From assembly GCA_023014365.1 (NCBI GenBank), contig JAEBUN010000007.1:124001-188000 (forward strand): a DNA stretch of 64,000 nt, read 5' to 3'. Below the pieces are notes generated by a model. The model saw only the letters and a list, made by a program, of their open reading frames with translations, was not told the origin of the DNA and did not search any database. Origin of the DNA: Lepiota brunneoincarnata (lineage: Eukaryota; Basidiomycota; Agaricomycetes; Agaricales; Agaricaceae). This document shows, piece by piece, positions 21,665-59,318 of the stretch; positions within the stretch are counted from its first letter, which is position 1; each line of letters starts with the position of its first letter. The translations under genes and the position numbers were made by a program.

Positions 21665-22964
21665 TGAAAAGGTGGAAACTTTCGTGGGTTTTAATATAGA
21701 TAAATGGCTTGTTCTCACTAAGCTTAGTTGAAATTCGATAAGCTTAAGTTAATACAAGTAGTATTAGATAGATAATGAACAGTTTCGTCTTTTAGGGTGT
21801 TCTGAGGGTGCATTCTGACAGCGAAATTCAAGAGAATAGTGTTTTTAGAGGTTAACAAACAGCTGTTGAAGTTATCTTAGCCATATGGTGCAACAGTGAA
21901 AGGACAATCCCTGTCAATTCAAAGCACGGGGTCTCTAGTCTCTGGTCTCTGGTCTCTGAACTCTGTTCTCTGTCTCTGTCTCTGTCTCTAGCACTCTGGA
22001 ACTCTAAACTCTGGACTCTATTCTCTGTCTCTGTCTCTGGGTTGGTCAATGACTGAAGAAATCACACTTAACAATGCACACTAAATAGTTCTCTGAAACT
22101 GTTCTTGATCACGGCTCGCAGACTTGCGTGTGGAAGCAGGGGTGAGACCTCTTGCTTCTCCACAAACAAGCGCGACCATATTTATATTGTTTAGATACAT
22201 GTGAGAGATAGTAAATATGAAATAGAAAACAATAAGCTTAATTGTTACAGGTACTGCAGAATATTTTGGAAGGTTCAGCAGCATTTCTACCTTGCCCTGG
22301 GTTATGGGTTTTTCTCTGATTGATGAATGGCAATCCAGCCAGACGTGTTCCATGCTCGTCTGCATTATTTTGCGTCCATGCGAGCGCATTAAACCTCCAG
22401 ATCAATTATGATCGGAATGTATGGCATATGTACAATCCCTTGATCCGCTGTAATTAATCTCAGTCAGGCAGTATGCCAAGGTGCTGGGACCCACAAAGCA
22501 CTTGTTAATTATGAGTCTTTGATATGTCTAGGGTTTTGGGCATTGAGTGTCACCTCCCAAATGTTGGACGTTCCGTTCTGTGGTCCGGTCATCATTATTG
22601 GGCTTGCTATGGGCGTAATACCCCTGCAACAGCTGCTATGTACATTCTTTAGGTTCCAACGGATCTGAGTTCATCAGAAAACTGCTCGTAAGGTCCCTTG
22701 ATGCGACCGGAGTATACTCGATAGGCTATGTAAAGTCCGGAATCCCTCCAGAGAGCGTTCTGATAGCTTGGTTCACTAAGCTTAGTGATAATGAGCTGGT
22801 TTGAACACTTCTGAGGCTCGAATATCCTCAGTTTGGTTAAACTGGCTACTATGGGACATAGTACCAATCCTCTATAGGGTTCTTTAATGATATAGCCAAT
22901 GATTCTACATAGAGAATTGTTCCAGAGTACGGAATTCATGTATAGGCATGAAATTGGCATATCA
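21665..22964 (-). repeat. 3' LTR of the Ty3-type element (LTR A)
   Basis: On the plus strand it starts TGAAAAGGTGG and ends GGCATATCA (TG...CA on both strands). It has four TAAGCTTA copies (21,719; 21,739; 22,233; 22,777), a minus-strand TATAAATA box and a GTCTCTG-rich tract at about 21,930-22,045. In its U3 part it resembles solo LTR C more than its own partner LTR. Confidence 0.93.
22179..22186 (-). promoter_or_regulatory. TATA box of LTR A
   Basis: TATAAATA on the minus strand in the sequence ACAATATAAATATGG. It is conserved in all four LTR copies (34,143-34,150 in LTR B). It would place the start of R about 30 bp further on, before the GTCTC-rich U5/R tract. Confidence 0.6.
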
Positions 22965-22974
22965 TCTCCCCCTA
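22965..22974 (-). promoter_or_regulatory. Polypurine tract next to the 3' LTR
   Basis: The minus-strand sequence is TAGGGGGAGA directly before the 3' LTR start TGATATGCC, the expected primer site for plus-strand DNA synthesis. The extended word CTCCCCCTARCCA (plus strand) recurs at 25,685 and 26,788. Confidence 0.75.
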
Positions 22975-23292
22975 ACCAATTGCTGACTGTCCTCAGTCAT
23001 TATCTCCTTCAAATTCACAGTATCTGGGTCTCTGTGATACGCTCTATGTTCTAGAATGTTCACCAGCTTCGAGAGTAGCATACTTTCGCTAAGCTTATTC
23101 CAAGATGATGTCATGTCACCGAGTTTAAATGTATAGATCAACTTCTTGTTGCTATAGCCTAAATTTTTATCTCATTATTGGGTCTTTTTAAAAGTCCCAA
23201 GGTCTCGTTTCCTCTCTTTTGTTCTCCCTCTCACTTCTCACTTGTCTATTTTCATCTCAACTTCCAGTCTTTTATGCCCGCCCACAGCAACA

Positions 23293-25327
23293 ATGGACAG
23301 AAACATGTGCAGCAACAAGAGAGCTTGTCATGATGAAGATTCAGATTCTTCCTCTAGTAAGCAATGTTCACTTTACTGTTGTCCTTGTCTTGCTAACACT
23401 GTCTTCAGACTATACTGAGCCAAGGAGCGCCCTTATGGCTCCAGGAAATGCATCTTCTCCTTCAATCATGCAATGTAAGTCGCATTTTTCCCCCGTTCTC
23501 ATTGTCATCACTCATGTTTTTCTCTGCTTTTAGGTCTCACTATTCGCCTACCAGCGTGTCGCAACCTCCTGCCTCAATGGGAACCACCAGCACCACATAC
23601 TAGGAGGGCTAGAGGAGGGCGAGGAGCTCGAGGAGCTTGCGGAAATCATCAGGTAGGTGTGGCAAGGACTCCTCCTCCACCATACTCTCCGTCCTGCGAA
23701 CCAACTCCTCTGCCGGCCTCTCCCTTGGCCGCTCCAGTGCCAAGACGCATGATTTCCATTGCATCATTGTGCAATCCAACCAACAAGTGCTCTGCCAGAT
23801 TTTCCACAGAACCCTCGTCAGGTATCCCTGTTGGCGGGCCCTCTGGTGGATTATCCACAGAGGCTTCGTCCAGTTCAATGTTGCTGCCCCCTCTCGCCGT
23901 CTCTCTGCACACCCTGGACAAGGAAGACTCGCTGGTGCTCCCTCCCTTGGGTATTGCATCAGGTTCAGAGGTGCTGGGCCCTTCAACAAACTGGCCTTCT
24001 TCCCCCGTACTCTCTTCTGCTACTTCAATGCGTAAGCTTAGTCATTTTTCACAATATATTTGTTCTTTCCGCTGACTTCTGCTTTAGTGCATATACCAGC
24101 TGCCTTTAAAGGCAAACAGAGGGCAAAATCATCAATGCCACCCCCTCTTCCCTTATTCCTGGCGGGTTCTAACTTGTCATCATGTTCTCCGGTCCCTGAG
24201 GTCTCTCAAGCCGACCTCTTTAAAATCTTTAGCTGGTCGTCTTCTCTGGATGAGCAACATGTGCTGGCTTCGCCTAGGTGCTCAACACCATCACCACCTC
24301 ACTTAGCTGGCGCTCCAGTCAAGTCTCCCGCAAGCGCTGTGGAGATTTCACCTTCTCCAGATTTGGAGCTCCTTCTGGAGCCTTCACCTGCCCCTCAAGA
24401 ACCAACTTTTGTTTTTCAAGATGTGTTCTTAGCTTCTCCAACCCCCGTCCTTTCTCGTTTGCCTAGCCCAGTGGTTCCAGAGATCCCTCAAGAGTCCCCT
24501 CATGCTGGCCCATCATGTCAACAACACGTCCTTTCGTCCAAGAAGAGTTTGAACACACAGACGAAGAAATACGTTCCCCAAGTTCGCATTCGACACTCTG
24601 AGGCCGCCATTATTTGGGACCATGGATACCGCCACCTAGTCCCACTCTTTTGTGAGGACTTTCCTAGGCTGCTGGCAGCTAGCCAGCTTTCGGTACATTC
24701 TCCAAGTTTTTTTTTCATGTTTCCTTACTGAAGGTTTTGACATCCACCCCAGTATGTGCCACCTTGGTCTCGGTGTCCTTCCTGCACTGCTCGTAAGTTG
24801 GAGTGCGAGCCTCTGGGCAAGGGTAAGAAGTGTCACAGCTGTGACCTCTATAATTACCCCTGCACCTTCGCAGACCATCCGCGAGTCTCAGCTGGCGTTG
24901 TGAACGCCCTAGTCACGTCTTCACTGACCAGTGAATACTGTAAGTTTCTTTGTTCACTATTTTTTTCCTTTCTTATTCTCTTTATTTTCTAGATCTGGCT
25001 GCTTTTGCACATGTTGTGTCCTCCAGCTTGGTCAGCCTGGAGGCAAACCGCGTCGCTTACGAGGCTTCAGTGTTTCACCACCGTTGGGTGGTTTATCAGT
25101 TCATCCAGGAAATGCAAGCTACCTGGACGGCCTTGGAAGGTAACGATGTGGCGTTCATTGAGATGGGGATGGCCAACTCCATTGAAGACGTCGAGGTGTT
25201 CTTTGAGTTCGCCAACAACTTTCCGGGAGTCCCAACATACGAAGAATTTGAGGAGCTCAAATCACTTCTCTTCCTCGCTTTCCCAATGACTCAGGATCCA
25301 GAGTCTATCTTGGAGGACTTAAACTAG
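23293..25327 (+). CDS. Zn(II)2Cys6 protein encoded antisense inside the Ty3-type element (584 aa)
   Basis: Six exons read as one frame: 23293-23356, 23409-23474, 23534-24031, 24088-24692, 24753-24939 and 24993-25327. All five introns are GT-AG and 52-60 nt long. The exons total 1,755 nt including the stop. The N-terminal half is Pro/Ser-rich and probably disordered, with an Arg/Gly patch at residues 67-77. A perfect C6 cluster follows, with Cys at residues 419, 422, 429, 438, 441 and 448 (CX2CX6CX8CX2CX6C) and TARKLE after the second Cys. The C-terminus is acidic and helical. Zn2Cys6 domains bind DNA, usually as dimers on symmetric sites. No stop interrupts it although gag-pol on the other strand is broken. 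No TAAGCTTA lies in its exons; one forms the 5' splice site of intron 3. Target and role are inference. Confidence 0.82.
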
Positions 25328-25683
25328 CTGCTCCCCTTTTATACCTTTATCTCTTGAATGTAACATCCTATTTTGTCCTGTAGATACATTCATAATTAAA
25401 GATTCTTGTCTCTTGGTATCCTTCTGAGTTAAGCTTGAGGCCTTTCTGAAGACCCTGAGCTAAGCTAAGGCTTCCAGCTGCTTATACGCTCATTAGATAT
25501 TTCTCTGACACTTCTGCAATGCCTATTGCCCCTCAACGTGCTGTGATCCGCAATGCGTAGCGACCCAGCTCATCCGCTCCGGTTTACTTACAAGCCCGAA
25601 CCAGCCTGTCCATGATGTTCGAAAAAGCTCTTCGCGAAAAAGCTTGTGTCAAACTGTCAAACTGAAGCGCCCCTTGGGACCCA

Positions 25684-25693
25684 TCTCCCCCTA
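25684..25693 (-). promoter_or_regulatory. Second polypurine-tract-like sequence
   Basis: CATCTCCCCCTAGCCAAATTG here closely matches CATCTCCCCCTAACCAATTG at the 3' LTR. It lies between the two antisense genes and could prime plus-strand synthesis internally, or mark an old junction where the Zn2Cys6 gene was added. Confidence 0.4.
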
Positions 25694-25924
25694 GCCAAAT
25701 TGAAATCGGTGCCCTCACTGTTCCATCAGAATCCCTGTGCACACTGATAACCACAAGACCCTGGCAACATGTTACCTAATAAGGCAACTGTGGTTCAGCA
25801 AGTCTGTCAAAGGCTGGCTACTCAAGATTACAGGTTTCCTAGGCCTCTCAGGTCATAAGCTTAGGGTGGAGGGTGCTCTTCATCCACTTGTTATGATTTG
25901 TCATCACTGCCTACGGCCTTTTCT

Positions 25925-25931
25925 TATAAAA
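25925..25931 (+). promoter_or_regulatory. TATA box of the 359-aa antisense gene
   Basis: TATAAAA lies 46 nt upstream of the ATG at 25,977 in the context TCTTATAAAAGCGAGG. One TAAGCTTA octamer lies 62 bp further upstream (25,856-25,863). Confidence 0.6.
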
Positions 25932-25976
25932 GCGAGGGAGCGACGCCTCATTCTAGCAGACACCCTTCGCAAGAAA

Positions 25977-27324
25977 ATGGCTTCTTCTATCCCCCATCTC
26001 CAGGTCAAGCTCGACGATCTCATCAGCAATGCCAAAGGTCATCTTCAGCACCTGCAAAACGGCCAAGTTGCTCGTCCCCTTGTCAAGAAGGCTCTCCTTG
26101 CGTTCGACGCCCCTGGGGTATGTCTACTCTTTCCATGCTTCTCTCGCCATTTCTAAATCATTTCTAGTCTGCTTATATTGAAGCGTTATTGGAGGATAAT
26201 GAGGCTATCAAGCTTCATGTCAACCAGGACTACATCTTCCGTATCTGCAAGCTCTACAAAATTTACCAAAACAACTACCATTTGTCTTATGAGATGCCCG
26301 CGATCTATAAGGCGCTCTCTGAATGCTGTAGCTGCATTAATCGTGTTTGTTCTGAAGAATCCCACAAATCCAGGACCAAAGAGGCTCAGAACCCATCGTC
26401 CATGACTGGCTCTACTTCCTCCAACATTGCTGAAGGCTCTGCTGTCCCCAAACGTGTAAGCTTAGCATTCTTTTGGCTCCAATCATCTCCTCATGTATAA
26501 GCTTAGCCTCGCAAAGGTTGCAAGGCCCGTGTCTCTGCTGCTATTGTGGTAGACACCGATACCGAGCTTGCTGAGAGTATGACCAGTGCTTCCAACTCCT
26601 GAGCAACCAGTGCTGACATGGTAATATAGCTGCTTCTCAACCTATTACATTGGCTGAGATAATCACTCGCCTTCAGGACATGATAGTTGATGAGGAGGTC
26701 TCTCAAGCTATTGTCAAAGAGGTTCATGTAGTCTCGCCTTATCGCAAGCGTCATTTGTCTACCTCCGACATGGTGTGCCCAGCTCTACTCCCCCTAACCA
26801 CTGATTCTGACTTCATCCTTCGCTAGGAGGCCGTCAAAAAGTCCTCCTCATCTAAAGGCACTGTCCGTCTTCTTCCCTATTGTCAAGTTCCCAATATGAA
26901 CACTAAACACTGCTGTTATGCCCAGGCTGAACAGGTTCTAGCCAAAACCAACACCAATACTGCCAAGCGTGCCCATACCAAGTTTACTTCCGATGAGCGC
27001 ACCTTTGCAGGCTTATCTGGTGGGCAATTTCTTACTTCTATTCGCTAAGCTTAACGGTTCTGACACCTCTCCTGGGCAGCTCGTTTGCTCCAGGAACTCC
27101 AAAACCTCCTGTCTCACTCTCGCGACAAGTACAAATCCGAATCTCGTGGTGACGATGCTCAGTCAGTCGAATGCGACCTCAATTCGCTCAGCTGGGACTT
27201 CATCAATGCTATTCCCTTGCTCAAAGCCAACTTAAAGAGGTTCCAATTCCTCATTCAAGAGTGCATCCATCTTAAAAGCCTTTTGCGCAACCTTTCCGAC
27301 TTGGACAAGTCCTCCCCCGCTTAA
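25977..27324 (+). CDS. Second antisense gene in the Ty3-type element (359 aa, unknown function)
   Basis: Six exons join without stop: 25977-26117, 26168-26455, 26507-26576, 26630-26772, 26827-27019 and 27080-27324. They total 1,080 nt with stop. Introns are 50-60 nt and several have clear CTGAC branch sites. The product begins MASSIPHLQVKLDDLI and is mostly helical and charged. It has a basic patch PKRPRKGCKARVS around residue 142 and a helical end with FINAIPLLKANLKRFQFLI. I recognise no domain. Intron 2 (26456-26506) begins GTAAGCTTAG and ends TAAGCTTAG, intron 5 contains the octamer, and the stop codon TAA is the first three bases of another. It lies tail to tail with integrase. It may act with the Zn2Cys6 protein; that is inference from adjacency only. 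Confidence 0.78.
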
Positions 27325-27400
27325 GCTTAACGCTTTTACAGTCCCCAGGATAGTTTTCCTTTGATAAGTAGATAGTTCTGTCCACAATATCAGGTTTTTT

Positions 27401-28903
27401 CTATCCCTCCAACTCTTCTGGCTCCCATCTGTCACTAGGCTCATCCTCAGTAGTCTCCTCCAGGGTCTTCAGTCCCTCTGGCGACAGATCTAACAACTCT
27501 TGTAACTCCAGCGGCAATGGCATATGTTTTCTGGCTAAGTAGGGAATTACTCTGAACGCCGCCACTTTATTCTGCCATACAGAGCCATCCAACTCTGCCA
27601 GGATATATGATCCTCCCTTTGATCTAGATATGACCACCATGGGTCCTAGATACCTGGGTTTCATCTTCCTGTCTGCTGAGCTCTCTATAGCTGTGTTTCT
27701 CACTAATACTAAATCTCCTGGGCCGAAGTGATAATCTTTTATCTTATGCGCTGCTTGTCATTCCATCTCCCAAGCCTTGCTAAGCTTAGTGTCTGAAACA
27801 TGCTGACGCACCTCCTCAACATGCTGAACATGTTTTGCCAAAGCCTGAGCTCGGTATCCTATCAACCCGGCCATGGTTAAGTACTTATTTGGTAGTTGTA
27901 CTAGCCAAGTGGCCTCTTTGACATCCAGAGGTAGCACCAGGTGCACTCCGGTTACCAGAAAGTACAGGGAACACCCCATTCCTTTTCTAATGGTTATCCG
28001 ATCTGCCCACATAACGTGCGGTAGGTGCCAATACCACTTTTTGACATCTCCATCTGTAGCTTTGTACAACATTTGCTGCACATCCCAGTGGGCTCTTTCA
28101 ATAATCCCGTTCACTTTGGAATTGTAAGGAGATATTGTTACTCCTTTTATCCCATATTTTTCTTCCAGCCATCAAACAGCTTTCTTAAATGGAGAACCGT
28201 TGTCTGTGACAATCTTCACTATACAGCCCCATTGGCAAATGATATCTTCAAATAACCACTGCACAATCGAACTAGCATTCTCTTTTCTCAAAGCTTTTGC
28301 CTCCATCCAGGATGATAGTCCACACCTTCCATGCACAATGTAGCTACACCCATTAGAACTTGGTGTCATATGTAGCATGTCCACATGTAGCACTTGGAAT
28401 ATCGATGGTGTGGGCGTTACTATTGGTGGCGTCTTGATGATCACCTTTTGTCATTGCTGGCATAGATGGCATGATTGCACATACCAAGCTACGTCTCCTT
28501 CAACTTCCGGCCACCAGAACCTCTGCATTATAAGCTTAGTGGTTGCGTATGTTCCTCTGTGTCCTAGGAAGTCATGGCTGGCTCGCAACATATACATACG
28601 CTGCTCCTTATCCACTACTAGCTGATGTTGACTGCTAGGACTCATCCTATACAGTCTCCCCTCTTCATCCAAGAAGAAATGCTCCACCATATACTTAAGC
28701 TTACGCAGATCCGGCTCATCCAAGCCTTCAGCTGTGCTACTGCCCCCTGTTTTCAGGAATTCCCTGACTTTGGGTATTCTTCTGTCTTGTATTTGTGCTG
28801 TATCTGTCCTACACGATTCATCATATGCTTCCTCTATCTTGGTCAACTTTTCCTCTTCGAAATCTGGCACTAGCCTGACATCCGTCATTAAGCTTAGTAC
28901 TTG
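27401..28903 (-). pseudogene. Integrase region of Ty3-type pol
   Basis: Read leftwards, the region holds the zinc finger with His in HDFLGHRGTYATTKL and Cys in SCHLCQQ. The core follows with catalytic Asp in VLHVDMLHM and IVTDNGSPF and Glu in NGIIERAHWD. A C-terminal module contains [11 protein letters not shown] and ends at 27,401. In-frame stops lie at about 28,448 (TGA where CGA is likely), 28,169 and 27,755. The product would insert cDNA into chromosomal DNA, but this copy cannot make it. Confidence 0.88.
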
Positions 28904-30508
28904 TCAGTGGTTTTCTGGGCACACTGGGTCTTCTATAACCCTAAGCTTAGCCTGTTGTTCATCCAAGTACTCTTCCCGAGCTTGATCCAGCTCATACTCA
29001 AAATCATACACATCACGCGCCAGACCCTGGTTGAAGCCAGAGTGACTGTCGATCTCATCACAGAAGGCTTCCAAGGGTAATGGATCTGCAGCCCCTGGAT
29101 CTTCTTTGATCAACTCGAACTCCTCTCCCTCGTCCTCAGATCCGTCATCGAAATGACGGGCTGTCTCATCACCGGGATAGTAACGTTGTCTGGACAGTCC
29201 ATCCGGCCCAAATGTCTTCCCTTCTTTGTGTACTAGCATGAAGTGGAACAATCTAATGAAGTCCACCCAACAGTTTACAGTAGCATTCAGGAGTTTTCCT
29301 GGGTTGTTTAACATCCCAAAGAGAAACTTCGTGTCTGTTTCCACTACTAGATTTCTCGATCCCCACAATAAATATTTCTCCTGTTCCAGCACCATTCTTA
29401 AGCCGCATAGCTCTTGCCTGGGCTGAGAATACCTCTGCTGTCTCTTGTCCAATAATATTGACCCAAACTTCACATAATGTATAAGCTTAGCGTCTTCTAC
29501 ATCTCTCTGATATATATAGTATCCCACCGCCCTCCATGAGGTATCCACAGCTACTACTATGGGTTGTTTACTTGGGAATTTGGGGTTCCTGGTTGGGAAA
29601 CAGCGCTGAATTGCATCTTTCAGCTCCTGCTGCGCTTTCTGTTTGTTTTCTCCCCATTCAAACTCTTGTCCCTTCTTACACTTTTTGTATAGAGGTGCAG
29701 CAATGGCTATGAACTTTGGCATATGATTCCTGCAGCGCGTAGCTGTTCCTAGAAAACCCCTTAGCTCTGAGACATTCTTGCAATCCCCCCATCTTAAAAT
29801 TTTTCCGATGGTGTCTGTGGCAGGCAACCATCCTTTATAGAAGCATTCACAACCCACTACAGTGATTTCATCAGCGCAGATAGTCGTTCTGGGCCCAGAG
29901 AAGGTTCCCCCTACCTATTTCATCCTCTGTAGAATCCTATTGACCATCTGCATGTGTTCCCATACAAATCGTCGGATCCCTGGGTTCTTTTTCAACGTCT
30001 CTTCAGTGCCATCTGGCAACTTGTATCTGGTTTTCGGTCCCCTGATAGGTACATCATCTATGTATGGCATTGTGTATTCTGGTATCTCACTGGCTAGGAT
30101 CGCTGTTACATCCTCATGAAATATAGGCACTGAATTGGTCCATCCCATAGGTAGCGTCACTAAGCGTAGCACTCCAAAAGGCATCTGGAACATTGTTAAG
30201 TCCCAAGACGACTCAGCTAACAATCACTTGTCATATCCAACATATAGATCCAGGATGCCTCCACAAGCCCTGCCTGCAAAGTGCATTGCCAAATCTTCCG
30301 TTGCTGGTGGCAGCCCTGAATGTGCTATTGTTACTCTGTTCAGCGGTTCCAAGCTGTGTACCAGTCTCAAACTTTTTCCATCTTTCTTTACCACACAGAA
30401 CCATCTGGATCTATAGGATGAGTTTGATGGCTCGTATACACCAGCACTAATCTTTCTTTTTATAATGGCACAGACTTCATCATAGATTGCTGGTGGAATC
30501 GGAATGGG
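28904..30508 (-). pseudogene. Reverse transcriptase and RNase H region of Ty3-type pol
   Basis: The active-site YIDD is intact in TMPYIDDVPIRGPKTRY, with PFGVLRLVTLPMGWTNSV upstream. The thumb/connection has ELRGFLGTATRCRNHMPKF. RNase H begins at VVAVDTSWRAVGYYIY and includes VVETDTKFLFGML, ending KTFGPDGLSRQ. Breaks include TGA at about 30,225 in the stretch normally reading DER (CGA likely), TAG at about 29,912 and TGA at about 28,901 (CGA likely). The first 300 nt after 30,508 are shifted. Confidence 0.88.
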
Positions 30509-31150
30509 TTATTCAACCCACGGAGTATGTTCTACCATCGGTATCTTGATCGGCGGGAAGAAATCTTCCCTAAAACATCCCTTTTCCTCATCTGTCCAGG
30601 CAAATGCCTTTTCTTGAAGCATCATGATGTGGTGCATCAGCTTTCTTTCCTCTGGCCACAAGAAATCCCCTGCATGGGCTTCGTCCAGCTTAAGCTTATG
30701 CTCCTCAGTATATCTGCCTGTCAGGACAAACTCTGGAGGATGCATGCTAAGCTCAGGCATTTCTGCCAGCAGGTCCCCTTTTATTTCTCGTTTTATCCTG
30801 AATTTCTCCAGTAGATCACCCAACACTGGCCTCACTTTTAAGGCTACTGGTTTATATTTCTTCCCAGCCAGGCATTGTACCGTATCTTTGTCATCTTCTT
30901 CTGTTTTGAAGACAGTTATTCCCTGGTCCTCTGTGCCCTGCACGTTGGCTATGCATCCTAGGCACAATAATGCCATCGCTTTATCTTCTTGTGGACAGTC
31001 CTCATCGCATATGACTCGGTCAATGAACATTAGCTGTAGCTCGGCCTCTGAGAAGCTTCCTTTCGCTAAGCTTAGTGTTTGTGCGACGACAGGGCCCTTC
31101 TCATCATCATAGTCTATTATGCAAGCCACCTCTCCTTGTCCCTTGGTCAA
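30509..31150 (-). pseudogene. N-terminal pol region before the RT
   Basis: A 213-codon open block contains YKPVALKVRPVLGDL, TGRYTEEHKLKLDEAHAG and GDFLWPEERKLMHHIMMLQ, the standard lead-in to the RT in Agaricomycete Ty3 elements. It ends EHTPWVE with a stop just before the RT starts. Two octamers are read in frame, as HKLKL (30,691) and TLSLA (31,067). Confidence 0.8.
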
Positions 31151-31212
31151 CTCATCAAGGTTTCTTGAAAAATTTGACTGTTTTCTCTAAGCTTAAGAGG
31201 ATTACACTCTCC

Positions 31213-31764
31213 TCAAGCATAAGTTGGCAACACAGCCCTTTCTCTGGTATTTGGGTCCATAATAACCAAGGTTTGCTCACCACCGGCGCTATTCCTGACT
31301 TCGCTAGCAGTCATTACATCAAACGGTCGTCCCAGCAGTACTCGATATGTGGGGTTGCGAACTATGTGAACTTGTAAATAGATTGTGACTCCCCTGCAGG
31401 TAAAGCCTACATTCTTTGCCAACCCACAAGTCTTTTCAACCTGCCCATTCGCACTCTGCAAATTAATTGTAGTGTCTGGGTCCCAAGAAACTTGACATGC
31501 AATCGCCACTTCCTGACTCATAGATAGGATCTGTGACCCACTATCTAGCAAGGCCTCTTCCTGCCAAATCCCATTTATCAGAGTCGGAACTACTCTCAAC
31601 AGTTCGCATTCTTTAGCAGTAAACACTTGCCATCCCCTGTCTCTTCTGGGAAGTGACTCCAAGTACTGCATGATTGGATCCTGAGCTACCCAGGCTTGCA
31701 TTGCTGAGCCTTCTCGGAGCACTGTATCATACTTCCGAGAGCCATCTGCCAACTCCGTTATCAT
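31213..31764 (-). pseudogene. Retropepsin-like protease region
   Basis: The block has the aspartic protease signature ALLDSGSQILSM and the second conserved stretch YRVLLGRPFDVMT, with LQSANGQ between them. It would cleave the Gag-Pol polyprotein. It is separated from the upstream and downstream blocks by stops. Confidence 0.85.
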
Positions 31765-31937
31765 AACCTGTACCGGCCCACTATTAATTCCATATCTTCT
31801 GTATCATCTTCCAAGGAACCAACTCCTGCTATTAAGCTTTTATTCATAGGTACCCGTTTTCTCATAATTTGCTCTCTATAAGCATTCCTGTATAAAGGTG
31901 ACAATGCCAAGAGTTCTCCATGTGATACTGAGGCTTC

Positions 31938-33682
31938 TCACTTCAATACCCTGCTGAGTACTTCCTCAACATCGACATTCCTCTCTATAGGGGCCTGGTG
32001 CTTATACGCAGGCTCCTTCTTGGATGATTCCATCCTTCTGACAGGCAGCGGTGGTACCCCAACGACCGGGCGCAGTAGTTTCACATTCCTATATGGTAAT
32101 TCCCCTGCTACTGCATGCAGTGGTTTCTCTGTTGTCTGCCCTATTTCCTCATTTTCTGATTCTTCTGATCGCTCGGAATCTGATGCGTCCTCAGGAGTCT
32201 GTCCTCTGGCGAAGGCGACCTTCTTCTTCAGAGCCAGCTCCTTCCTCAAACCCTTTAGAAACCTGACTCCAAGTTCCAAGTCTTCACGCCACTCCTGGTG
32301 TCCAAATACTGGCTTGCCGAGGGCGTACCATCTGTCAAACCACTAAGCTTAGCCTGTATCTGGGCCAATTGCTTGGCCAAAGACTGTATCTCAACATTAT
32401 CATCCTTTCTGGTCATAAGCTTAACCTTTGGGGCACTCCCAGCGTGGATGGCAGCTGTTTCCAACATCTCCATGCGCTGCTTCAGATGGCGGATTTCTTC
32501 TTCTGCTGGCGACCTTTGGTTTTCTGACCTCAGGAACGCTTTCTGTGCAACCACTGCTGCCGCTGGCACTTGCAGTAACTCAGGCTCAACCTCTGGCAGT
32601 TCTAGTACCTGAACAAAGAGTTGTCCCTTTGTCGCATAGTACTTTGCTACTTTCTCTTTAATAGGCCCTTCCCCTTGAGGGATACTCAAGCTGTCTCCCA
32701 TATATATTTTGTTCCCTTTGACTCTAATTTGGCCAGCTTGTTTATCCACCTCCATGTCTGGGCAGAATAACCAACTATGCCCCAATAACCAACAGTAGAA
32801 ACACTTGCGATCAGAAAGCGACCCTGCTAGCCCACTTCCAGTATTCCTCTGAGCGTGATTATAGCCGGCATGATTATGTCCGTCCTTCGCCAAACTCTCT
32901 AAGTATGATTTTAAAGTATGCCCCTGGATATTCATGAGGTCCTTAAGCTCAGCGAGACCGCCTGCCATCTGCGAGACTTCATCCTGAAACTTCTGCTTTA
33001 AGCTTTGCAGCTCTTGCTTTACTACAGGGTCATAAGTCCCTGTTCCGGACGTCGCAGGTGGATGGCTCATCGATGCCAAGTTCACTGGCCTTGAATCCTG
33101 ATGAAGGGATCGCATAAGTGTTTTGCCAATCGAAATTTCGACAGCTTTATCTACGACAATCCTCCAATCATAGGGGTCCTCTTTGCGTAAATCCTTTGCA
33201 GTTAGTGCCGACCCATTGCTCACGGTTCTACGCGCCCCGGTGATTGCTAATCTCGCATTGAGTACATCCTGGAACACGGAGTCCAGTGTGCTCGTAAATA
33301 ACTTGACTAGCTCTTGGTTCGAGACTACTGCCAGCGACTTCAGGCACTTTTCTGCTTCTAGAATGAATTGCCTTTTGAAGTCCAAGACTCTATGCTCCTC
33401 ATTCATCGCAATGCCTCTACTCTCTGTGCAGAGTTCCCTCAATCGTCGCACTGAGCCCTGCTTGGCTGCCACAGTCTCAGGATACTCTTTCTTCAATCTC
33501 TCTACGAAGCCTGTCCAGCTTCCTGCTGGGAACTCTGCAAAACTCATCCACTCTTCACGGATATCCTGGTCCACATATGACACTGCCCAATTTATCCTTT
33601 CTGCATTGTCCATCATCTTCGTTATCATTGAAAAGGTGGAAACCTTTGGAGGTTTTAATATAGATAAATGGCTTGTTCCCAC
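31938..33682 (-). pseudogene. Gag region (capsid/nucleocapsid) and gag-protease linker
   Basis: A long open frame (about 33,682 to 32,255) holds the capsid-like part (ERINWAVSYVDQDIREEWMS) and one CCHC-like zinc knuckle remnant (CFYCWLLGHSWLFCPD). It then shifts into a linker (32,279-31,938) with APIERNVDVEEVLSRVLK and a TGA. No in-frame ATG exists before the LTR edge except the one at the LTR/internal junction. The last LTR codons nevertheless read KPPKVSTFS, a typical Gag N-terminal motif. About 25 residues normally following that motif are missing. Confidence 0.8.
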
Positions 33683-34928
33683 TAAGCTTAGTCGAAATTC
33701 GATAAGCTTAAGTTAATACAAGTAGTATTAGATAGATAATGAACAGTTTCATCTTTTAGGGTGTTCTGGGGGTGCATTCTGACAGCGAAATTCAAGCGAA
33801 TAGTGTTTTTAGAGGTTAACAAACAGCCGTTGAAGTTATCTTAGCTGTCCGGTGCAACAATGAAAGGACAATCCCTGTCAATTCAAAGCGCAGGGTCTCT
33901 AGTCTCTGGTCTCTGGTCTCTGAACTCTGTTCTCTGTCTCTGTCTCTGTCTCTAGCACTCTGGAATTCTAAACTCTGGACTCTGTTCTCTGTCTCTGTCT
34001 CTGGGTCGGTCGATGACCGAAGAAATCACACTTAACAATGCACACTAAATAGTCCTCTGAAACTGTTCTTGATCACGGCTTGCAGACTTGTGTGTGGAAG
34101 CGGGGGTGAGACCTCTTGCTTCTCCACAAACAAGCGCGACCATATTTATATTGTTTAGATACATGTGAGAGATAGTAAATATGAAATAGAAAACAATAAG
34201 CTTAATTGTTACAGGTACTGCAGAATATTTTGGAAGGTTTGGCAGCATTTCTACCTTGCCCTGGGTTATGGGTTTTTCTCTGATTGACGAATGGCAATCC
34301 AGCCAGACATGTTCTGTGCTCGTCTGCATTATTCTGCATCCATGCGAGCACGTTAAGCCTTTGGATCAATTATGATCAGAATGTATGGCGTATGGACAAT
34401 CCCTTGATCTGTTGTAATTAATCTCAGTCAGGCAATATGCTGAGGTGCCGGGACCCACAAAGCACTTGTTAATTATGAGTCTTTGATATGTCTAGGGTTT
34501 TGGGCATCGGGTGTCACCTCCTGAATGTTGGACATTCCGTTCCATGGTCCGGTCATCATTATTGGGCTTGCTATGGGCGTAATACACCTGCGACAGCTGC
34601 TATGTACATTCTTTAGGTTCCAACAAATCCGAGTTCATCGGAAAACTGCTCGTAAGGTCCCTGGATGCGACCGGAGTATACTCGATAGGCTATGTAAAGT
34701 CCGGAATCCCTCTGGAGAGCGTTCTGATAGCTTGGTCCACTAAGCTTAGTGATAATGAGCTGGTTTGAACACTTCCGAGGCTCGAATATCCTCAGTTTGG
34801 TTGAACTGGCTACTACGGGACATAGTACCAATCCTCTATAGGGTTCTTTAATGATATAGCCAATGATTCTATGTAGAGAATTGTTCCGGAGTACAGAATT
34901 CATGTATAGGCGTGAAATCAGTGTATCA
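33629..34928 (-). repeat. 5' LTR of the Ty3-type element (LTR B)
   Basis: It starts TGAAAAGGTGG and ends GTGTATCA on the plus strand and is 1,300 bp. Octamers lie at 33,683, 33,703, 34,197 and 34,741, the TATA box at 34,143-34,150 (minus). Its U3 part is closer to solo LTR D than to LTR A. Confidence 0.93.
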
Positions 34929-35020
34929 GCGTGCATGAGTGACAACTGGACTGCATAATAATTCATCTCAAGCAGAAAGTCTGCACCACGCCTATGGAGT
35001 CCAAGAATTGCCTGGCAGGT
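34929..35020 (-). pseudogene. tnp2 transposase, upstream fragment
   Basis: The minus-strand frame reads QAILGLHRRGADFLLEM and YYAVQLSLM, then continues at 21,664 in the same frame if one copy of the GCGC duplication is removed. It ends abruptly at 35,020/35,021, where the inverted-repeat arm begins, so the 5' part of the transposase is lost. Confidence 0.8.
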
Positions 35021-35100
35021 GGCAATCGAGAATAAGTTGATCTGGAGGACGGGATCAGTACCTGGCAGGATACCATCAAAATGGTGTCCTACATGATGAT

Positions 35101-35460
35101 TTAGTTAATCGTGCAAACTAAAAGCTGTTGAATGTACGAACTGGTATCAAATGCATTGACCTGGTCCTGCACAGAACACTTTGCTGCCTTGTAGTCCTCC
35201 CTAATCTGAGTGATTTTGTTTAGCACAGCTTGTGCTGCATGCTGGAGCTCCTGCATTTCCCTTTCAGAGAGTGATAGGCCAGCAAGATCTTCTAGAAAGG
35301 CATGATAGGACCTAGTGAGATCCTTGAAGGCACGCTTAGAGGCCCCACTCAGGGGATAGTTTAATGTGGAGAGTGCCTCTGACATTTGGCAAAGGCGTAA
35401 GGTAGAGGCCCCAAGCTGGGAAGGTGCATCGTCACTGCTAGTGGGAGCTGGTGCTACATT
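35101..35460 (-). CDS. Helical protein fragment, unknown (left arm)
   Basis: A 94-codon open frame starts MSEALSTLNYPLSG and holds a long amphipathic helix (LSEREMQELQHAAQAVLNKI). The frame continues upstream to about 35,460 with PSQLGASTLRLCQ before a TGA. The diverged copy near 7,205-7,500 keeps part of it (KCSAQG), so it probably was an exon of a family gene. I do not recognise the family. An identical copy lies at 55,800-56,084. Confidence 0.35.
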   Translation of the reverse strand, partial: NVAPAPTSSDDAPSQLGASTLRLCQMSEALSTLNYPLSGASKRAFKDLTRSYHAFLEDLAGLSLSEREMQELQHAAQAVLNKITQIREDYKAAKCSVQDQVNAFDTSSYIQQLLVCTIN

Positions 35461-36167
35461 GACACTAGTTTCATAAACTCATTGCACCCCACTGGCCGGG
35501 GCAGGGGCACAGTGTTCTATCCTGGGCAGTGGCTCGACATCCCTGAGCTACAGGTCACCTAACATCAGTCCAAGGCTATCAACAGAACCATGGGCCCCAC
35601 CACCATCAGCCAAGGATAAAGACATATGAATATGTCTTTGAGGATGCAGGAGTGATCTATCCTCCCCCCTAACATTGTTACCATCAGGCTTCAGACGTTG
35701 CGGTGGGGATGGTTCAGAGGCATTGGATTGGTGGGGGGATATATTCTGATCATGGTCTACAAGTGTGGCATCCAAGATTCTGTGGCTTTCGATGGTACAA
35801 CAATCTTGAGCCGCACCTTGGCATCTGTGGCTGATACAGTTGCAGTGGGGCATGAGGAGTAGCATGTTTCTGGAGATCCAAAAAACACAAGAGGAAAACT
35901 GAGTGAGGAACAAGTGACTCTCTGGAGCACCAAAAGAGTCGCAAGCAAGAGAATGCAAACTGCAAAATTAACGACCCCTTCTTCTCGACTAAGCAGCATT
36001 GGGCACATGAATGCATGTGAAATCCTCTCGTCACATCCACAACAGGGTTCCTCATGCACATAGTACTGTTTCGCCCCCGCGTGACCAGACATCTGCATTA
36101 TGGATCCACCAGATGCAGATTTTTATCTAGGATGTGTTTTGGTTTCCAGACACATTCATTCAAATCG

Positions 36168-36570: not shown

Positions 36571-36979
36571 CGCTGAGTCCTTCGCTGAGTCCTTTGCCGC
36601 TGCCCCTGTTGCTCCCTCCTCCTTTTGTAGGATCTACCCACATTGTGTTCAGGCTCCCTCATACGTTTAGAGTGGCTACATACAGGTTTGGCCCACAGGC
36701 AAATGTCACAAGTGGGATCCAAAGCTCCGCTTGCAATATAGTGGTGTTTTTTGGTTGAGACTGCCTGAACTGTCTGAATTGGTACCGTATCTACAATCTC
36801 AAGTAAGATTTCAAACTGGATGAGGAACCCCTACCCACCCTTTCCCCAATACCATGCCTGCAATGTGTGGGTGAGGACCTGTGTCCCCCCAGGAGATGTA
36901 GTAGGCATCACGTAGACCATTCCGTGGTCACTTCCCCCAATCACCCTAGTTCCATCTTCCCCCAGTGCATCACCAAGTC

Positions 36980-40987: not shown

Positions 40988-42287
40988 TGAAAAGGTGGAA
41001 ACTTTCATGGGTTTTAATATAGATAAATGGCTTGTTCTCACTAATCTTAGTCGAAATTTGATAAGCTTAAGTTAATACAAGTAGTATGAGATAGATAATG
41101 AACAGTTTTGTCTTTTAGTTTGTTCTGGGGGTGTGTTCTGACAGCAAAATTCAAGAGAATAGTGTTTTTAGAGGTTAACAAACAGCTGTTGAAGTTATCT
41201 TAGCCATACGGTGCAACAGTGAAAGGACAATCCCTGTCAATTCAAAGCACAGGGTCTCTAGTCTCTGGTCTCTGGTCTCTGAACTCTGTTCTCTGTCTCT
41301 GTCTCTGTCTCTAGCACTCTGGAACTCTAAACTCTGGACTCTGTTCTCTGTCTCTGTCTCTGGGTTGGTTGACGACCGAAGAAATCACACTTAATGACAC
41401 ACACTAAATAGTCCTCTGAAACTGTTCTTGATCACGGCTGGCAGACTTGCATGTGGAAGCGGGGGTGAGACCTCTTGCTTCTCCACAAACAAGCGCGACC
41501 GTATTTATATTGTTTAGATACATGCGAGAGATAGTAAATATGAAATAGAAAACAATAAGCTTAATTGTTACAGGTACTGCAGAATATTTTGGAAGGTTTG
41601 GCAGCATTTCTACCTTGCCCTGGGTTATGGGTTTTTCTCTGATTGACAAATGGCAATCCAGCCAGACGTGTTCCATGCTTGTCTGCATTATTCTGCATCC
41701 ACGCAAGCGCATTAAACCTCCGGATCAATTATGATCGGAATGTATGGCATATGTACAATCCCTTGATCCGTTGTAATTAATCTCAGTCAAGCAGTATGCC
41801 AAGGTGCCGGGACCCACAAAGCACTTGTTAATTATGAGTCTTTGATATGTCTAGGGTTTTGGGCATCAGGTGTCGCCTCCCGAACGCTGGATATTCCGTT
41901 CCATAGTCCGGTCATCATTATTGGGCTCGCTATGGGCGTAATACCCCTGTGACAGCTGCTATGTACATTCTCTAGGTTCCAACAAATCTGAGTTCATCAG
42001 AAAACTGCTTGTAAGGTCCCTTGATGCAACCAGAGTATACTTGATAGGCTATGTAAAGTCCGGAATCCCTCTAGAGAGTGTTCTGATAGCTTGGTTCACT
42101 AAGCTTAGTGATAATGAGCTGGTTTGAACACTTCCGAGGGTCGAATATCCTCAGTTTGGCCGAACTGGCTACTATGGGACATAGTACCAATCCTCTATAG
42201 GGTTCTTTAATGATATAGCCAATGATTCTATGTAGAGAATTGTTCCGGAGTACAGAATTCATGTATAGGCGTGAAATCGGTGTATCA
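40988..42287 (-). mobile_element. Solo LTR of the Ty3-type family (LTR C)
   Basis: It shows the same TGAAAAGG...TATCA ends and length as LTRs A and B. Flanks are CTGG (40,984-40,987) and CCGG (42,288-42,291), a 4-bp duplication differing at one CpG. Three perfect octamers are present (41,062; 41,556; 42,100) and the first is mutated to TAATCTTA. Open frames inside are LTR sequence, not genes. Confidence 0.92.
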
Positions 42288-44525: not shown

Positions 44526-45828
44526 TGAAAAGGGTGGAAACATTTGTGGGTTTTAATATAGATAAATGGCTTGTTCCCACTAAGCTTAGTCAAAATTCGA
44601 TAAGCTTAAGTTAATACAAGTAGTATGAGATAGATAATGAACAGTTTTGTCTTTTAGTTTGTTCTGGGGGTGTGTTCTGACAGCGAAATTCAAGAGAATA
44701 GTGTTTTTTTAGAGGTTAACAAACAGCTGTTGAAGTTATCTTAGCTGTACGGTGCAACAGTGAAAGGACAATCCCTGTCAATTCAAAGCACGGGGTCTCT
44801 AGTCTCTGGTCTCTGGTCTCTGAACTCTGTTCTCTGTCTCTGTCTCTGTCTCTAGCACTCTGGAACTCTAAACTCTGGACTCTATTCTCTGTCTCTGTCT
44901 CTGGGTTGGTCGACAACCGAAGAAATCACACTTAACGACGCACACTAAGCAGTCCTCTGAAACTGTTCTTAATTACGGCTGGCAGACTTGCATGTGGAAG
45001 TGGGGGTGAGACCTCTTGCTTCTCCACAAACAAGTGCGACCATATTTATATTGTTTAGATACATGCGAGAGATAGTAAATATGAAATAGAAAACAATAAG
45101 CTTAATTGTTACAGGTACTGCAGAATATTTTGGAAGGTTTGGCAGCATTTCTACCTTGCCCTGGGTTATGGGTTTTTCTCTGATTGATGAATGGCAATCC
45201 AGCCAGACATGTTCTGTGCTCATCTGCATTATTCTCCGTCCATGCGAGCGTGTTAAGCCTTCAGATCAATTATGATCAGAATGTATGGCATATGGACAAT
45301 CCCTTGATCTGTTGTAATTAATCTCAGTCAGGCAATATGCTGAGGTGCTGGGACCCACAAAGCACTTGTTAATTATGAGTCTTTGATATGTCTAGGGTTT
45401 TGGGCATCGGGTGTCACCTCCTGAATGTTGGACATTCCGTTCCGTGGTCCGGTCATCATTATTGGGCTTGCTATGGGCGTAATACACCTGCGACAGCTGC
45501 TATGTACATTCTTTAGGTTCCAACAAATCCGAGTTCATCGGAAAACTGCTCGTAAGGTCCCTGGATGCAACCGGAGTATACTTGATAGGCTATGTAGAGT
45601 CTGGAATCCCTTTGGAGAGTGTTCTGATAGCTTGGTTCACTAAGCTTAGTGATAATGAGCTGGTTTGAACACTTCTGAGGCTCGAATATCCTTAGTTTGG
45701 TCGAACTGGCTACTACGGGACATAGTACCAATCCTCTATAGGGTTCTTTAATGATATAGCCAATGATTCTATGTAGAGAATCATTCCAGAGTACGGAATT
45801 CATGTATAGGTGTGAAATTGGCATATCA
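44526..45828 (-). mobile_element. Solo LTR of the Ty3-type family (LTR D)
   Basis: It starts TGAAAAGGGTGG (one extra G) and ends GGCATATCA. Flanks are GCAC (44,522-44,525) and GCGC (45,829-45,832), again differing at a CpG. Four perfect octamers lie at 44,581, 44,601, 45,097 and 45,641. Confidence 0.92.
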
Positions 45829-45897
45829 GCGCCTGTGTTATTTAATGGGGTGTTATTGGAACCATTAGGACACATTCCTCGTCGGATACCCAACGTA
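45829..45897 (+). pseudogene. Gene B, middle piece between two insertions
   Basis: This 69-bp stretch encodes PVLFNGVLLEPLGHIPRRIP in the frame of gene B, bounded by LTR D on the left and Tc1-like element 3 on the right. The frame continues at 47,499 after removing one TA. Confidence 0.65.
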
Positions 45898-56164: not shown

Positions 56165-56678
56165 GTGGGACAGTCGCTGCATTGCAAGTGGAGCACCAGG
56201 TGAGACGATGTGCCACTTCTGAGCTCCTAGGCCTTGTCGCTTTCCCACTAACATAAATCACTTGTACGCGACCCAATTTATGCACTCCAGTCCCTTTCTC
56301 ATCCTTCCATCTTCTCTCTACCTCTCAGCCATATGCACAGAACCCTTCTTGGACAACATCTGCTCAGAACGTTGACCACGATCACAAGGAGATAGGTTCA
56401 ATGGATGCGATGTTGCGCTGCAAAATCATTTCATTTGTGAAATCACTAGCTAATAAAGTAACTAACTCTCCATTACTGAATAATATCAGTATATGGCCAT
56501 GGTCAGACACTGGGTGCGAGAGATTTAGAATACTATCTAAAATATGTGAAGGCGGACATCTCAGAAACAGAACCAGAACACCCAGACAAGTAAAAGTGAT
56601 GTTAACTAACTTATGGGTGACAAGGCTATGGAAGAATGACTCTGGTATGAATGTACCCAAGCATTGTATCCGATACCG
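56165..56678. other. Unassigned stretch right of the inverted repeat
   Basis: The first 45 bp continue the old repeat family. Opposite-strand open frames of about 90 codons cover 56,382-56,688. The minus one (HPVSDHGHILILFSNGELV) looks more protein-like, but I do not recognise it. Confidence 0.3.
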
Positions 56679-58053
56679 TGTTAACTAAGATATTAGTTAA
56701 GATACTCATGACTGCACAAAAAGACCCATTTCTTTGCCTCTGCCCTAGAAAGCGGACGAGTCGCAACACCTATGTCATCCGGATGGTACCTAGTCATAAT
56801 AACAGGTCCAGGAGTGAATCTTGACAAAAGAATGTAGGGATTAGCTGAATGCCCTGACAAGAATGCCCCCTTGAAACGGTTCTGATGATATTGAAACCTA
56901 AGGGATCGAATGGGGGTATCCCCGAGGGTACTCAGGGAAGGATGCCCCCTCATAGAAACAAAAAGAGATCAGAAATGATGAACTAGAAAATGAAGATTGA
57001 TAAGAATAGAATAAGCTAATTAATTCTAGTGTTAGTCTACTACCTGAAGACTATGGAAGTGGACTTTAGAACATTAGGGTTGAAAAGCTCAGGTGTGGAG
57101 AGTCCGAGAATAAAATAAAAACCAATAGATAAACATTAGCGAGGAAACTCGCTAACCTGGCTGGCTGTGATATAAATAGCCAGGCACCTAGGGAGCAAGT
57201 CCCTGAGAGCAAATTGATGTCGCTGATATCGGAACTCCTAGAATGATGCTCCTAAATGATGAGGAGACAATAAAATGATGAAGCTGAAGGCTTGTTTCAG
57301 GTATACCCATAAGTTAATTGTATATTGTTATAAAAACTCATCTGTAAATTACATGGGAGGCAAGAAACCGCTTGCCTATTTCCCCCCCTGATTGTATGGT
57401 TGATTAGGATAAGAATATAAAGCAATTTTACGCGATTTTCTTCGGTCATAAGACCACCAGAGACTTAAAGAGTTATACTCTTTAAAACCAGACCCTTTGA
57501 AATGATTGAGATATTGACAGACCCTTCTGCTTGACTCGAGAACTGAATACGAGTTGCTACGCCTCTTCGGTTCTTAAGTAGAAAAGTTCACTAACTTCCG
57601 TTTCTTTGGGTTCCTCTTAGAGGCCTTGCCTCAGAAGTATACCATTGAATTGTAGAGCTGTTTAATTGAGAAGCGAACATAGTATGCTAGGGCCCGTTGA
57701 AAACGCTGTCCACTAGGTCTATCTAGTTTAAAGATACTTACTGCAGGAGCTCGCTAGAAGCCTGTCTCGCTGAGTGGTATAAAAGTTTTATTGCCTTGTT
57801 CAGAAGCTGTAGTGCGCTAGGGCCCGTTAGATAACACCGTCCGCTAGGCCTACTAGCTTAAAGACACTTACTGCAGGAGCTTGTCAAAAGCCTGTCTCGC
57901 TGGGTAGTGTAAATTTACAGTATTGTCAAGAGAAAAGGACGTAGTATGCTAGGGCCCATTAGAATACGTTGTCTGCTAGGTCTACGGAGGTTCACTGATT
58001 GCGAAAGCTTGCATTTTGCCTGACTTATCGAATCGTGAAGATATTAGTTAACA
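56679..58053 (+). mobile_element. LTR-like block, 1,375 bp, with terminal TGTTAACTAA/TTAGTTAACA
   Basis: The block begins TGTTAACTAAGATATTAGTT and ends GATATTAGTTAACA, perfect 10-bp inverted ends of TG...CA type. A TATA-like GATATAAATAG at about 57,168 and AATAAAATGATG at about 57,268 suggest plus orientation. Flanking 5-mers (TACCG and TATTA) do not match, so it may be one LTR of a truncated element, or not an LTR at all. Confidence 0.4.
57681..58020 (+). repeat. About 130-bp tandem repeat, 2.5 units
   Basis: Units start at 57,681, 57,811 and 57,943, each with AGTRYGCTAGGGCCCRTT, then GTCYRCTAGGYCTA, and in the first two CTTACTGCAGGAGCT and AAGCCTGTCTCGCTG. The third is truncated. They lie inside the LTR-like block. 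Confidence 0.75.
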
Positions 58054-58184
58054 TATTATATAGCAACGACCGTCAAAAGTTCCCATTGTATTCAGATAGA
58101 ACAACTGTCTGTCTAGTTGGAGACTAAGAGAATAACGTACCAAAACCCTAAAAACACTAGAATTGAATATATTTCTGGAGATCT

Positions 58185-59318
58185 GTGACAACCTCTCCCC
58201 CACGAACTTATAAAGTTGGAATTAGCGAACCTGTTAACAAACTTCGTTTTCAATCTCGTAAAGTAATCCGCTTTTCAGCGACATCCAAAACCTCGGATGA
58301 CTTTACAAACGATGGGTCAACTTCTGACAACGGTGTGTCTGGGGAGGCGCCTATTGTAGCACAAAGTGCAGCCCTTGCCACCAAAATGTCGGTGGATTTT
58401 CCCATTTTCATGCCAGTAGGAAAAGTGCCACATAGTGCCACAGCCATGGTGATGCCACCCAGAATTTTCACTTCTGCCCTTCCAGAGTGCCTATACTTAG
58501 GTCTTGATTTAATTTTCATGTTTGACCCCATAACCGATCATATATTCTAATATATTAATTTGTGGGAGAATCTCAACTTGCTACTCACTTCCTGGTACAT
58601 ACACTTGTTTCAAGAGCCAATTCTAAGGAGGATATAAAGCACATGCTGACAGTCAAGTTCAAATTTCCTTACCCTTTCTGATCAACAAGTTCCTGATTAT
58701 CCCAAAACTGCATCAGGATTGCGTCGGATCCTTTGCCAAGTCCACTGAGGGAGACAAAGATGGACATATCTAATGTTCACTCATGCTCCATTTGTTAGTA
58801 ATTAGTATCCATGATCTCTTCACACCTGTACTGTGGCCCCCACTGGAGGAGGAGATGCCCAAGCAGTAAAGGAAGAGAGGGGTGGCCAAGGTGAGAGAGC
58901 CTTGGAGGTTAGTAACTAGTTAGATGTGGGGATCAAGGCTGCCAAGCAAGCTATAAAAAAGCACAAGAAACCAGTTCAAGTGCTGGTACTTGGTCAATGT
59001 ATGAGTAGTAGATGTCAGCAGCATCCCTTTCTGTTTCTTTTGGCTGAAATATTAACAGGCAAAACACCACGATAAAGTGCGAGTGAAGCATCCAGGGTGA
59101 CAAGTAATGCCTATAGGTTTCCTTCAACCCTCACATCATTGCTAACTTGCATTGCTAGACTTTGAAATGGCTTACACTCAGAAGACATGAGCCGAGGAGC
59201 ATGGACAGCATTGTCAGCATCTTGAGTGAAGAGACTGAATATAGCGTCTCCTTGGGTCAAAGACCCGTTCTGACAAAATGGCACTGAAATGTTCTTCTCC
59301 ACCTGTCCCACCTACAAA
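58185..59318. repeat. Dispersed repeat family copy (58.2-59.3 kb)
   Basis: 58,340-58,520 encodes PIVAQSAALATKMSV and FMPVGKVPHSA on the plus strand. The left copy near 6,640-6,900 encodes PTVAQSVAFATKLST and FTPVGKVLHSA on the minus strand. This protein-level conservation implies an exon of a family gene, of unknown function. 58,840-59,000 matches 6,290-6,500 inverted. 59,111-59,311 is an open minus frame of unknown identity. Confidence 0.55.

Follow-up and report, generated by a model that had tools for sequence, protein, structure and literature searches.

A palindromic octamer dispersed through a Ty3/gypsy-like retrotransposon of Lepiota brunneoincarnata is a candidate self-recognition site

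We investigated the palindromic octamer TAAGCTTA in a 64,000-nucleotide stretch of the Lepiota brunneoincarnata genome (contig JAEBUN010000007.1, positions 124,001 to 188,000; hereafter the window), where it recurs along a Ty3/gypsy-like long terminal repeat (LTR) retrotransposon, here called f1. Copies of f1 retain the octamer more often than control words, and a site that many of them have lost is replaced nearby. We are nearly certain that the word is selected at the level of nucleic acid and, judging from the sequence, consider it likely to be bound as double-stranded DNA. Whether it serves as the binding site of the element's own Zn2Cys6-like protein, in a self-recognition limited to the family, is in our estimate an evenly balanced question.

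Abundance and conservation of the octamer

The window holds 33 exact copies of TAAGCTTA against 0.83 expected (100 dinucleotide shuffles; largest count 3). Twenty-six belong to the f1 element (21719-34748), with four in each LTR and 18 in the interior, and seven further copies fall in two f1 solo LTRs (41062-42107 and 44581-45648); the remaining 48,107 bases contain none. This exact recount agrees with an earlier note on the same DNA as to the 26 copies and their division, the seven in related solo LTRs and the absence from the rest of the window, while the spacing given there as 50-1,800 bp measures 20-1,823 bp. The AAGCTT core alone occurs 51 times in the whole window against 24 expected. 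In the 10.7-kb interior, the 18 copies compare with 0.18 expected (-log10 P 29; the maximum over all words in 40 shuffles was 6.5), and TAAGCTTA is the top-ranked ungapped 8-mer there. Across the 55.6-Mb genome it is found 5,370 times, and the same word read backwards 842 times. The earlier note had many copies extending to the 10-mer CTAAGCTTAG; genome-wide, its occurrences number 2,011 versus 39 for the reversed control, and within the window element the extension is confined to 6 of the 22 distinct sites (4 interior, 2 LTR). One-mismatch neighbors of TAAGCTTA are in slight excess only, 14 versus 9.1 expected, hence it is the exact word that matters. Octamer density in other sequence, checked in part (the rest of the window and the families f2 and f3 described below), was not similar to that of f1.

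More than 100 f1-like matches were found genome-wide, fragments included, both to the RNase H region and to an exon that encodes a six-cysteine cluster (see below). We laid out 30 of the 133 cluster-exon matches and 30 of the 122 RNase H matches, taken best-scoring first and not as a random sample, and excluded the window's own copy, one locus in each set, from the counts. First-look candidates from the RNase H search came to 1,100, of which 120 were scored. Pairwise matches to the window copy were available for 67 loci and LTRs, and the control octamers lacked CpG, TpG and CpA, the fastest-decaying contexts. When any gap was scored as a loss, and locus L002 was left out because it overlaps L001, 351 of 372 site-copies were intact versus 252.5 expected from the control octamers. 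In matches of less than 90% identity, 66 of 67 were intact versus 31.9 expected, a figure whose weight is lessened by its origin in 8 distinct sites, two of which (24033 and 25856) supply 47 of the 67. A laxer count, in which an inserted base did not make a site a loss and both L001 and L002 were included, gave 357 of 376, and 71 of 71 below 90% identity. A single shared change at 30691, which gives TAAGCTTG, makes up sixteen of the 21 losses. This site is lost in 16 of 30 copies and the same 16 carry TAAGCTTA at 30748, 57 bp off, so that the number of sites is kept while the position moves. Another gain, at 25430, is common to two copies.

Changes were also counted on trees, a way to take account of the copies' common ancestry. 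Over 15 of the 22 distinct sites, parsimony gave 4 changes versus 25.5 in resampled control octamers, with 0 of 5,000 resamplings as low (P for the component parts: 0.022, 0.008 and 0.082). These counts were projected on the reference through BLAST matches and include substitutions only, so an inserted base at 24033 in L020 is uncounted. On a whole-locus alignment that includes non-homologous flanks, there were 18 changes versus 32.6 expected (P 0.004), and the two sites in the antisense genes took 14 changes in that alignment versus 0 when projected through BLAST matches; our conclusion uses the projected counts. Seven of the 22 sites stand outside the pooled test: 32344 and 32416 were covered by no copy examined, and the other five had one to four comparisons each, all intact. 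The 31-copy RNase H alignment, with the CpG control, showed 1 shared change versus about 4.8 expected and was mildly significant (parsimony P 0.022); without that control, the same alignment overstated the conservation effect. Both sites covered in a diverged subfamily (L071, 68-74% identity) are kept.

Collectively, the presence of the word in LTRs, predicted introns and two reading frames, its conservation above controls and the replacement of a lost site argue that it is selected as nucleic acid. The earlier note had proposed selection as DNA or RNA rather than as protein, and conservation above CpG-matched control 8-mers, together with the nearby replacement, bears it out; gain and loss of sites, checked in part, deviate from the control rate in the copies examined.

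The f1 element, its sites and its antisense genes

f1 reads on the minus strand and has LTRs and a pol with protease, RNase H and integrase in this order, as in Ty3/gypsy-type elements. The 5' LTR (33629..34928; TAAGCTTA at 33683, 33703, 34197 and 34741) is followed by a gag-like open frame that runs into it (32255..33712, assigned by position and without a confident Pfam match), an aspartic protease (31213..31803; PF13975, E 1.1e-07) and the RNase H and integrase part of pol (27401..31186), which is broken into several frames in the window copy. Reverse transcriptase was assigned by position, with no Pfam match to it in the f1 or f2 frames scanned. A polypurine tract (about 22965-22976, minus strand) abuts the 1,300-bp 3' LTR (21665..22964, with TG...CA ends; TAAGCTTA at 21719, 21739, 22233 and 22777). 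The element is flanked by the 4-bp repeat GCGC (21661-21664) and GCGT (34929-34932). Of the two solo LTRs, both on the minus strand, one spans 40988..42287 (three sites, first reading TAATCTTA; flanks CTGG at 40984-40987 and CCGG at 42288-42291) and the other 44526..45828 (four sites; flanks GCAC at 44522-44525 and GCGC at 45829-45832).

The 18 interior sites lie at 23090, 24033, 25856, 26457, 26498, 27046, 27322, 27781, 28531, 28696, 28889, 28942, 29482, 30691, 31067, 31188, 32344 and 32416. Four of the 22 distinct sites are in the LTR, 10 are within gag or pol frames and three (24033, 26457 and 26498) are at predicted antisense splice boundaries, with TAAGC in GTAAGC donors or CTTAG as an acceptor. 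Eight of the gag-pol sites read as KL and two as LSL; the third frame would give a stop. LTRs and predicted antisense introns contain the word, and so does gag-pol, in two of its reading frames; the earlier note had likewise placed it in several frames and in non-coding parts. The flanks of the 22 sites are unrelated and are not repeats of one another. G is favored as the base after the word (22 of 44 when symmetrized). Even spacing was considered and rejected, as the placement is indistinguishable from random.

Two genes antisense to gag-pol lie between pol and the 3' LTR. Gene 1 (23293..25327, plus strand) is predicted, from an exon model made by hand, to encode 584 amino acids in six exons (23293-23356, 23409-23474, 23534-24031, 24088-24692, 24753-24939 and 24993-25327). 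Its fifth exon, on the plus strand as well, encodes a Zn2Cys6-like six-cysteine cluster, C-x2-C-x6-C-x8-C-x2-C-x6-C, with the canonical spacing of Zn2Cys6 (PF00172). The median ratio of nonsynonymous to synonymous substitution (dN/dS) is 0.08 for exon 5 and 0.12 for exon 6 (31 loci, mostly f1 copies), hence purifying selection appears to act on gene 1 in f1. In nine aligned cluster sequences from f1, f3 and f2, the invariant columns are the six cysteines and one glycine only; L071 (decayed, without the first cysteine and with a stop) and one f2 copy (C17) were omitted from this alignment. Zn_clus is the sole Pfam match of the window exon, and five of the nine sequences match it. An AlphaFold model of the cluster protein (mean predicted local distance difference test score, pLDDT, 67.5) gave 16 PDB fold matches at E up to 10, none of them significant (best E 0.38), all of which we take to be Zn2Cys6 proteins (Hap1, Ppr1, Put3, Gal4, AlcR, Pho7 and CBF3). 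The region of antisense gene 2 (25977..27324, plus strand) has three predicted first exons (25977-26601) that encode 174 amino acids with a basic PKRPRKGCK stretch and without a Pfam match. A late open frame in this region takes its TAA stop from the site at 27322.

Two further features lie near f1. A minus-strand frame of 392 amino acids at 20430-21608, beside the element, is transposase-like by eye. Moreover, a 3.3-kb inverted pair (35021-38342 and 52843-56164) is 99.94% identical, with its right copy ending near the f2 LTR, and is probably a recent duplication or insertion.

Related families and the pairing of protein with word

The sister family f2 (L065, L067 and L070) is 65-70% identical to f1 in pol at the DNA level. 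The f2 body contains a single TAAGCTTA, whose place in f2 is shared by the three copies and, by coordinates, does not match an f1 site; two further ones in L065 lie inside a scrap of f1 LTR beside the f2 copy. Unrelated octamers occupy the f1 site positions in f2 (28942 falls in an alignment gap), hence the f1 sites probably arose within f1, and apparently by substitution because their flanks are not copies of one another. A correspondence between homologous positions of f1 and f2 sites was rejected for the aligned part.

The best word of f2 itself is TAGNTAAC, with 12 copies in 9.3 kb, 11 of the 12 on one strand, versus 1.4 expected (-log10 P 7.5, where the maximum was 5.8 in its own 40 shuffles and 7.6 in shuffles of other stretches). 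Taken alone, this enrichment in the f2 body is suggestive. The f2 LTR in the window (56408..58277), a stretch not used for word discovery, carries four copies (56601(-), 56680(-), 57828(+) and 58045(+)) versus 0.37 expected (0 of 2,000 shuffles) and no TAAGCTTA. It is 97.9% identical to the sequence adjoining f2 gag on contig C1, and was assigned as an LTR from that position. f2 has frames for two antisense genes, the equivalent of gene 2 being recognized by eye, and a six-cysteine cluster with the spacing X2-X7-X8-X2-X7 in two copies. Eight of the 16 f2 sites extend to TTAGNTAAC, that is TTA-GN-TAA; f1, with TAA-GC-TTA, has these triplets the other way round. At the f2 gap, everted triplets are in excess (body z 3.3, LTR z 3.8), but other triplet arrangements in f2 score as high (body z 4.3 for inverted triplets with gap 4, LTR z 3.6 for gap 8); the swapped order is an idea, not a result. 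The sister-family word speaks with less force than the enrichment, confinement, conservation and replacement of the f1 word and the selection on gene 1.

We also noted that the f2 pol frame on contig C1 is uninterrupted (L065:2880-6659, 1,260 amino acids), and that minus-strand frames with hydrophobic stretches lie between pol and the antisense genes (L065:1574-2777). The f2 LTR contains an internal tandem duplication at 57680-57985, about 175 bp and about 75% alike.

A third family, f3 (L068 and L075; C35 and C60), has an antisense zinc-cluster gene in a short unit between ~0.5-kb repeats; the stretches read do not resemble the gag-pol of f1 or of f2. One TAGNTAAC is present in each stretch. 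Candidates for an f3 word of its own were rejected, since all were either microsatellite-like or shared by way of internal repeats.

Several observations weigh against the pairing of a zinc-cluster protein with the word. The f3 cluster is 58% identical to that of f1, with the loop after the second cysteine nearly identical, and TAAGCTTA is absent from the f3 stretches of 7 kb and 4 kb. Either f3 is non-autonomous or the cluster does not determine the word, so that two families speak for the pairing and one against it. Compared with the f1 word, that of f2 is far weaker; counted over the entire window, TAGNTAAC shows no enrichment (6 versus 4.9 expected), nor is TAGKTAAC enriched genome-wide (857+865 versus 2,433+2,348 for the reversed word). 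The f2 copy omitted from the alignment has tyrosine for the first cluster cysteine, and the f2 cluster loop lacks the basic residues that are usual there in Zn2Cys6 proteins. As to the fold, the Pfam Zn_clus match of f1 falls below the cut-off of 21 bits, at 17.2 bits for the exon (E 0.0057) and 12.8 bits for the full protein; three of the nine cluster sequences also match zf-ChsH2 (best E 6.5e-05), one of them more strongly than any matches Zn_clus; and no PDB chain matches the cluster protein by sequence.

Explanations, known systems and significance

We postulate that a sequence-specific DNA-binding protein, most likely the Zn2Cys6-like product of gene 1, would recognize TAAGCTTA; that the binder is this predicted product rather than another is about an even call. 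The palindrome would suit a homodimer with two TAA/TTA half-sites and, at ~2 sites per kb over LTRs, introns and coding DNA, such a protein could coat its own family and little else. Words that are family-specific, dispersed and replaced when lost are best explained by a protein that finds many sites along its own element, and the sister family, with its diverged cluster and different word, could be a second instance. As to benefit, the likeliest would be that the element relieves its own silencing, or is activated in trans, with the effect restricted to its family. Polymorphism affects 210 of 242 CpG columns versus 500 of 3,762 elsewhere, mostly by transitions. In each of three insertions (the f1 element and both solo LTRs), the two 4-bp flanking repeats differ from each other by a single CpG-type transition, which points to decay driven by methylation once inserted. 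Together these suggest that the host methylates such elements, which would supply a motive for anti-silencing; as the main effect, however, anti-silencing is a somewhat doubtful proposal. We also offer, tentatively, a self-recognition code in which each family's antisense Zn2Cys6-like protein would coat its own DNA through a private dispersed word, families would diverge by flipping half-sites (inverted TAA-GC-TTA in f1, everted TTA-GN-TAA in f2) and new sites would arise by point mutation even in coding DNA.

If the element used TAAGCTTA to recruit a DNA-binding protein of the host (an activator, an insulator protein or an architectural factor), as Drosophila gypsy does with its Su(Hw) sites, this would fit all the DNA-level evidence equally well, and f3, with a similar cysteine cluster and no word, favors it. 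We nevertheless regard this as unlikely: host sites might be expected in the window outside f1, where there are none, the f1 sites run through gag, pol and LTRs while recruitment sites usually cluster in an LTR or untranslated region, and the sister family has a different word. Within the same self-recognition role, the binder might be the second antisense protein (25977 onward), whose basic stretch and apparent f2 counterpart are in its favor; it has no known domain, the only recognizable DNA-binding fold being the cysteine cluster, and we think its candidacy quite unlikely.

It is improbable that the word acts in RNA, on either strand, whether by palindromic dimerization and packaging or as splice-like signals (GTAAGC / CTTAG). 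Three of the 18 interior sites do fall at predicted antisense splice boundaries, and the preference for a following G points the same way. However, splice signals are degenerate, yet one-mismatch neighbors are barely enriched, and the LTR contains 4 of the 22 distinct sites, the gag-pol frames 10. Sites are moreover less unpaired than GC-matched controls on both strands (0.41 versus 0.54 and 0.42 versus 0.51), and a role in RNA loops was rejected on this ground. A coating protein could instead handle the complementary DNA (nuclear import, assembly of the integrase complex or chromatin-targeted integration), given that both LTRs and the interior are marked and that a palindrome marks both strands alike, but this would not by itself require family-specific words, and its chance is slight. 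Spread and conservation scarcely follow from mutational bias, from gene conversion or from a slow decay of sequence that lacks CpG. In favor of such causes, the word is without CpG, CpG decay is strong and the CpG-controlled RNase H alignment alone is only mildly significant. Against them, the pooled test shows CpG-free controls to change about sixfold more often than the word, octamers at the same positions in the sister family are unrelated, and losses and gains of sites are paired.

Turning from these alternatives to known systems that resemble the proposed binding by an element-encoded protein, sequence-specific self-recognition is, as far as we know, limited to plant VANDALs, which are DNA transposons (Mutator-like elements, MULEs). 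In Arabidopsis, the transposon encodes a VANC protein that goes with a short word recurring along that element; the words differ by family (YAGTATTAY for VANC21, AGTTGTCC/AGTTGTAC for VANC6) and are described in non-coding regions, often as tandem repeats, and VANC binding and demethylation have been shown (PMC5735166; PMC10398659). f1 likewise has a family-specific short word enriched along its length. Unlike a VANDAL or MULE, it is an LTR retrotransposon with protease, RNase H and integrase, its sites are single with unrelated flanks, 10 of the 18 interior ones are inside gag-pol frames, and its candidate protein, predicted from sequence, is Zn2Cys6-like. The analogy with VANC, which the earlier note had drawn, therefore holds in part: a different word in f2 and an antisense six-cysteine protein under purifying selection agree with it, whereas the lack of tandem repeats, the sites outside non-coding DNA and the wordless f3 do not.

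In the Retand, Grande and RIRE2 gypsy elements of plants, according to the passages on them, antisense open reading frames with a predicted DNA-binding domain of unknown role lie between pol and the 3' LTR, a long region with genes antisense to gag-pol as in f1 (PMC11963269). The Retand domain is TRP28, of flowering plants, and tandem repeats are described; unlike for f1, the passages on Retand give no dispersed recognition word (PMC11963269). By analogy, and as far as these passages go, VANC/VANDAL would be the closest mechanism and Retand elements the closest anatomy. The fungal factors Gal4, Ppr1, Put3 and Hap1 share the six-cysteine spacing of f1 and belong to its sole fold matches, below significance. 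Zn2Cys6 dimers read short half-sites, inverted, everted or direct, and the usual half-site is CGG, unlike the TAA/TTA proposed for f1. Drosophila gypsy, with its insulator, is also an LTR retrotransposon with repeated protein-binding sites, as f1 is a candidate to be; there the binder, Su(Hw), is host-encoded and the sites form one cluster, whereas f1 sites span the whole element.

A literature search on TAAGCTTA itself gave no transposon paper among the matches listed, and the literature searched by title and abstract opening (including PMC12859917) showed no LTR retrotransposon in which a protein of the element is matched to a word dispersed along it. Gypsy elements repeatedly carry antisense genes in the region from pol to the 3' LTR (PMC11963269); that of f1 comes with a candidate target site. 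If the proposal is true, sequence-specific self-recognition would exist also in a retrotransposon, probably in another kingdom, through another fold and with sites placed along coding DNA. A natural series for the co-evolution of a DNA-binding protein and its targets would then be available in protein families whose words diverge.

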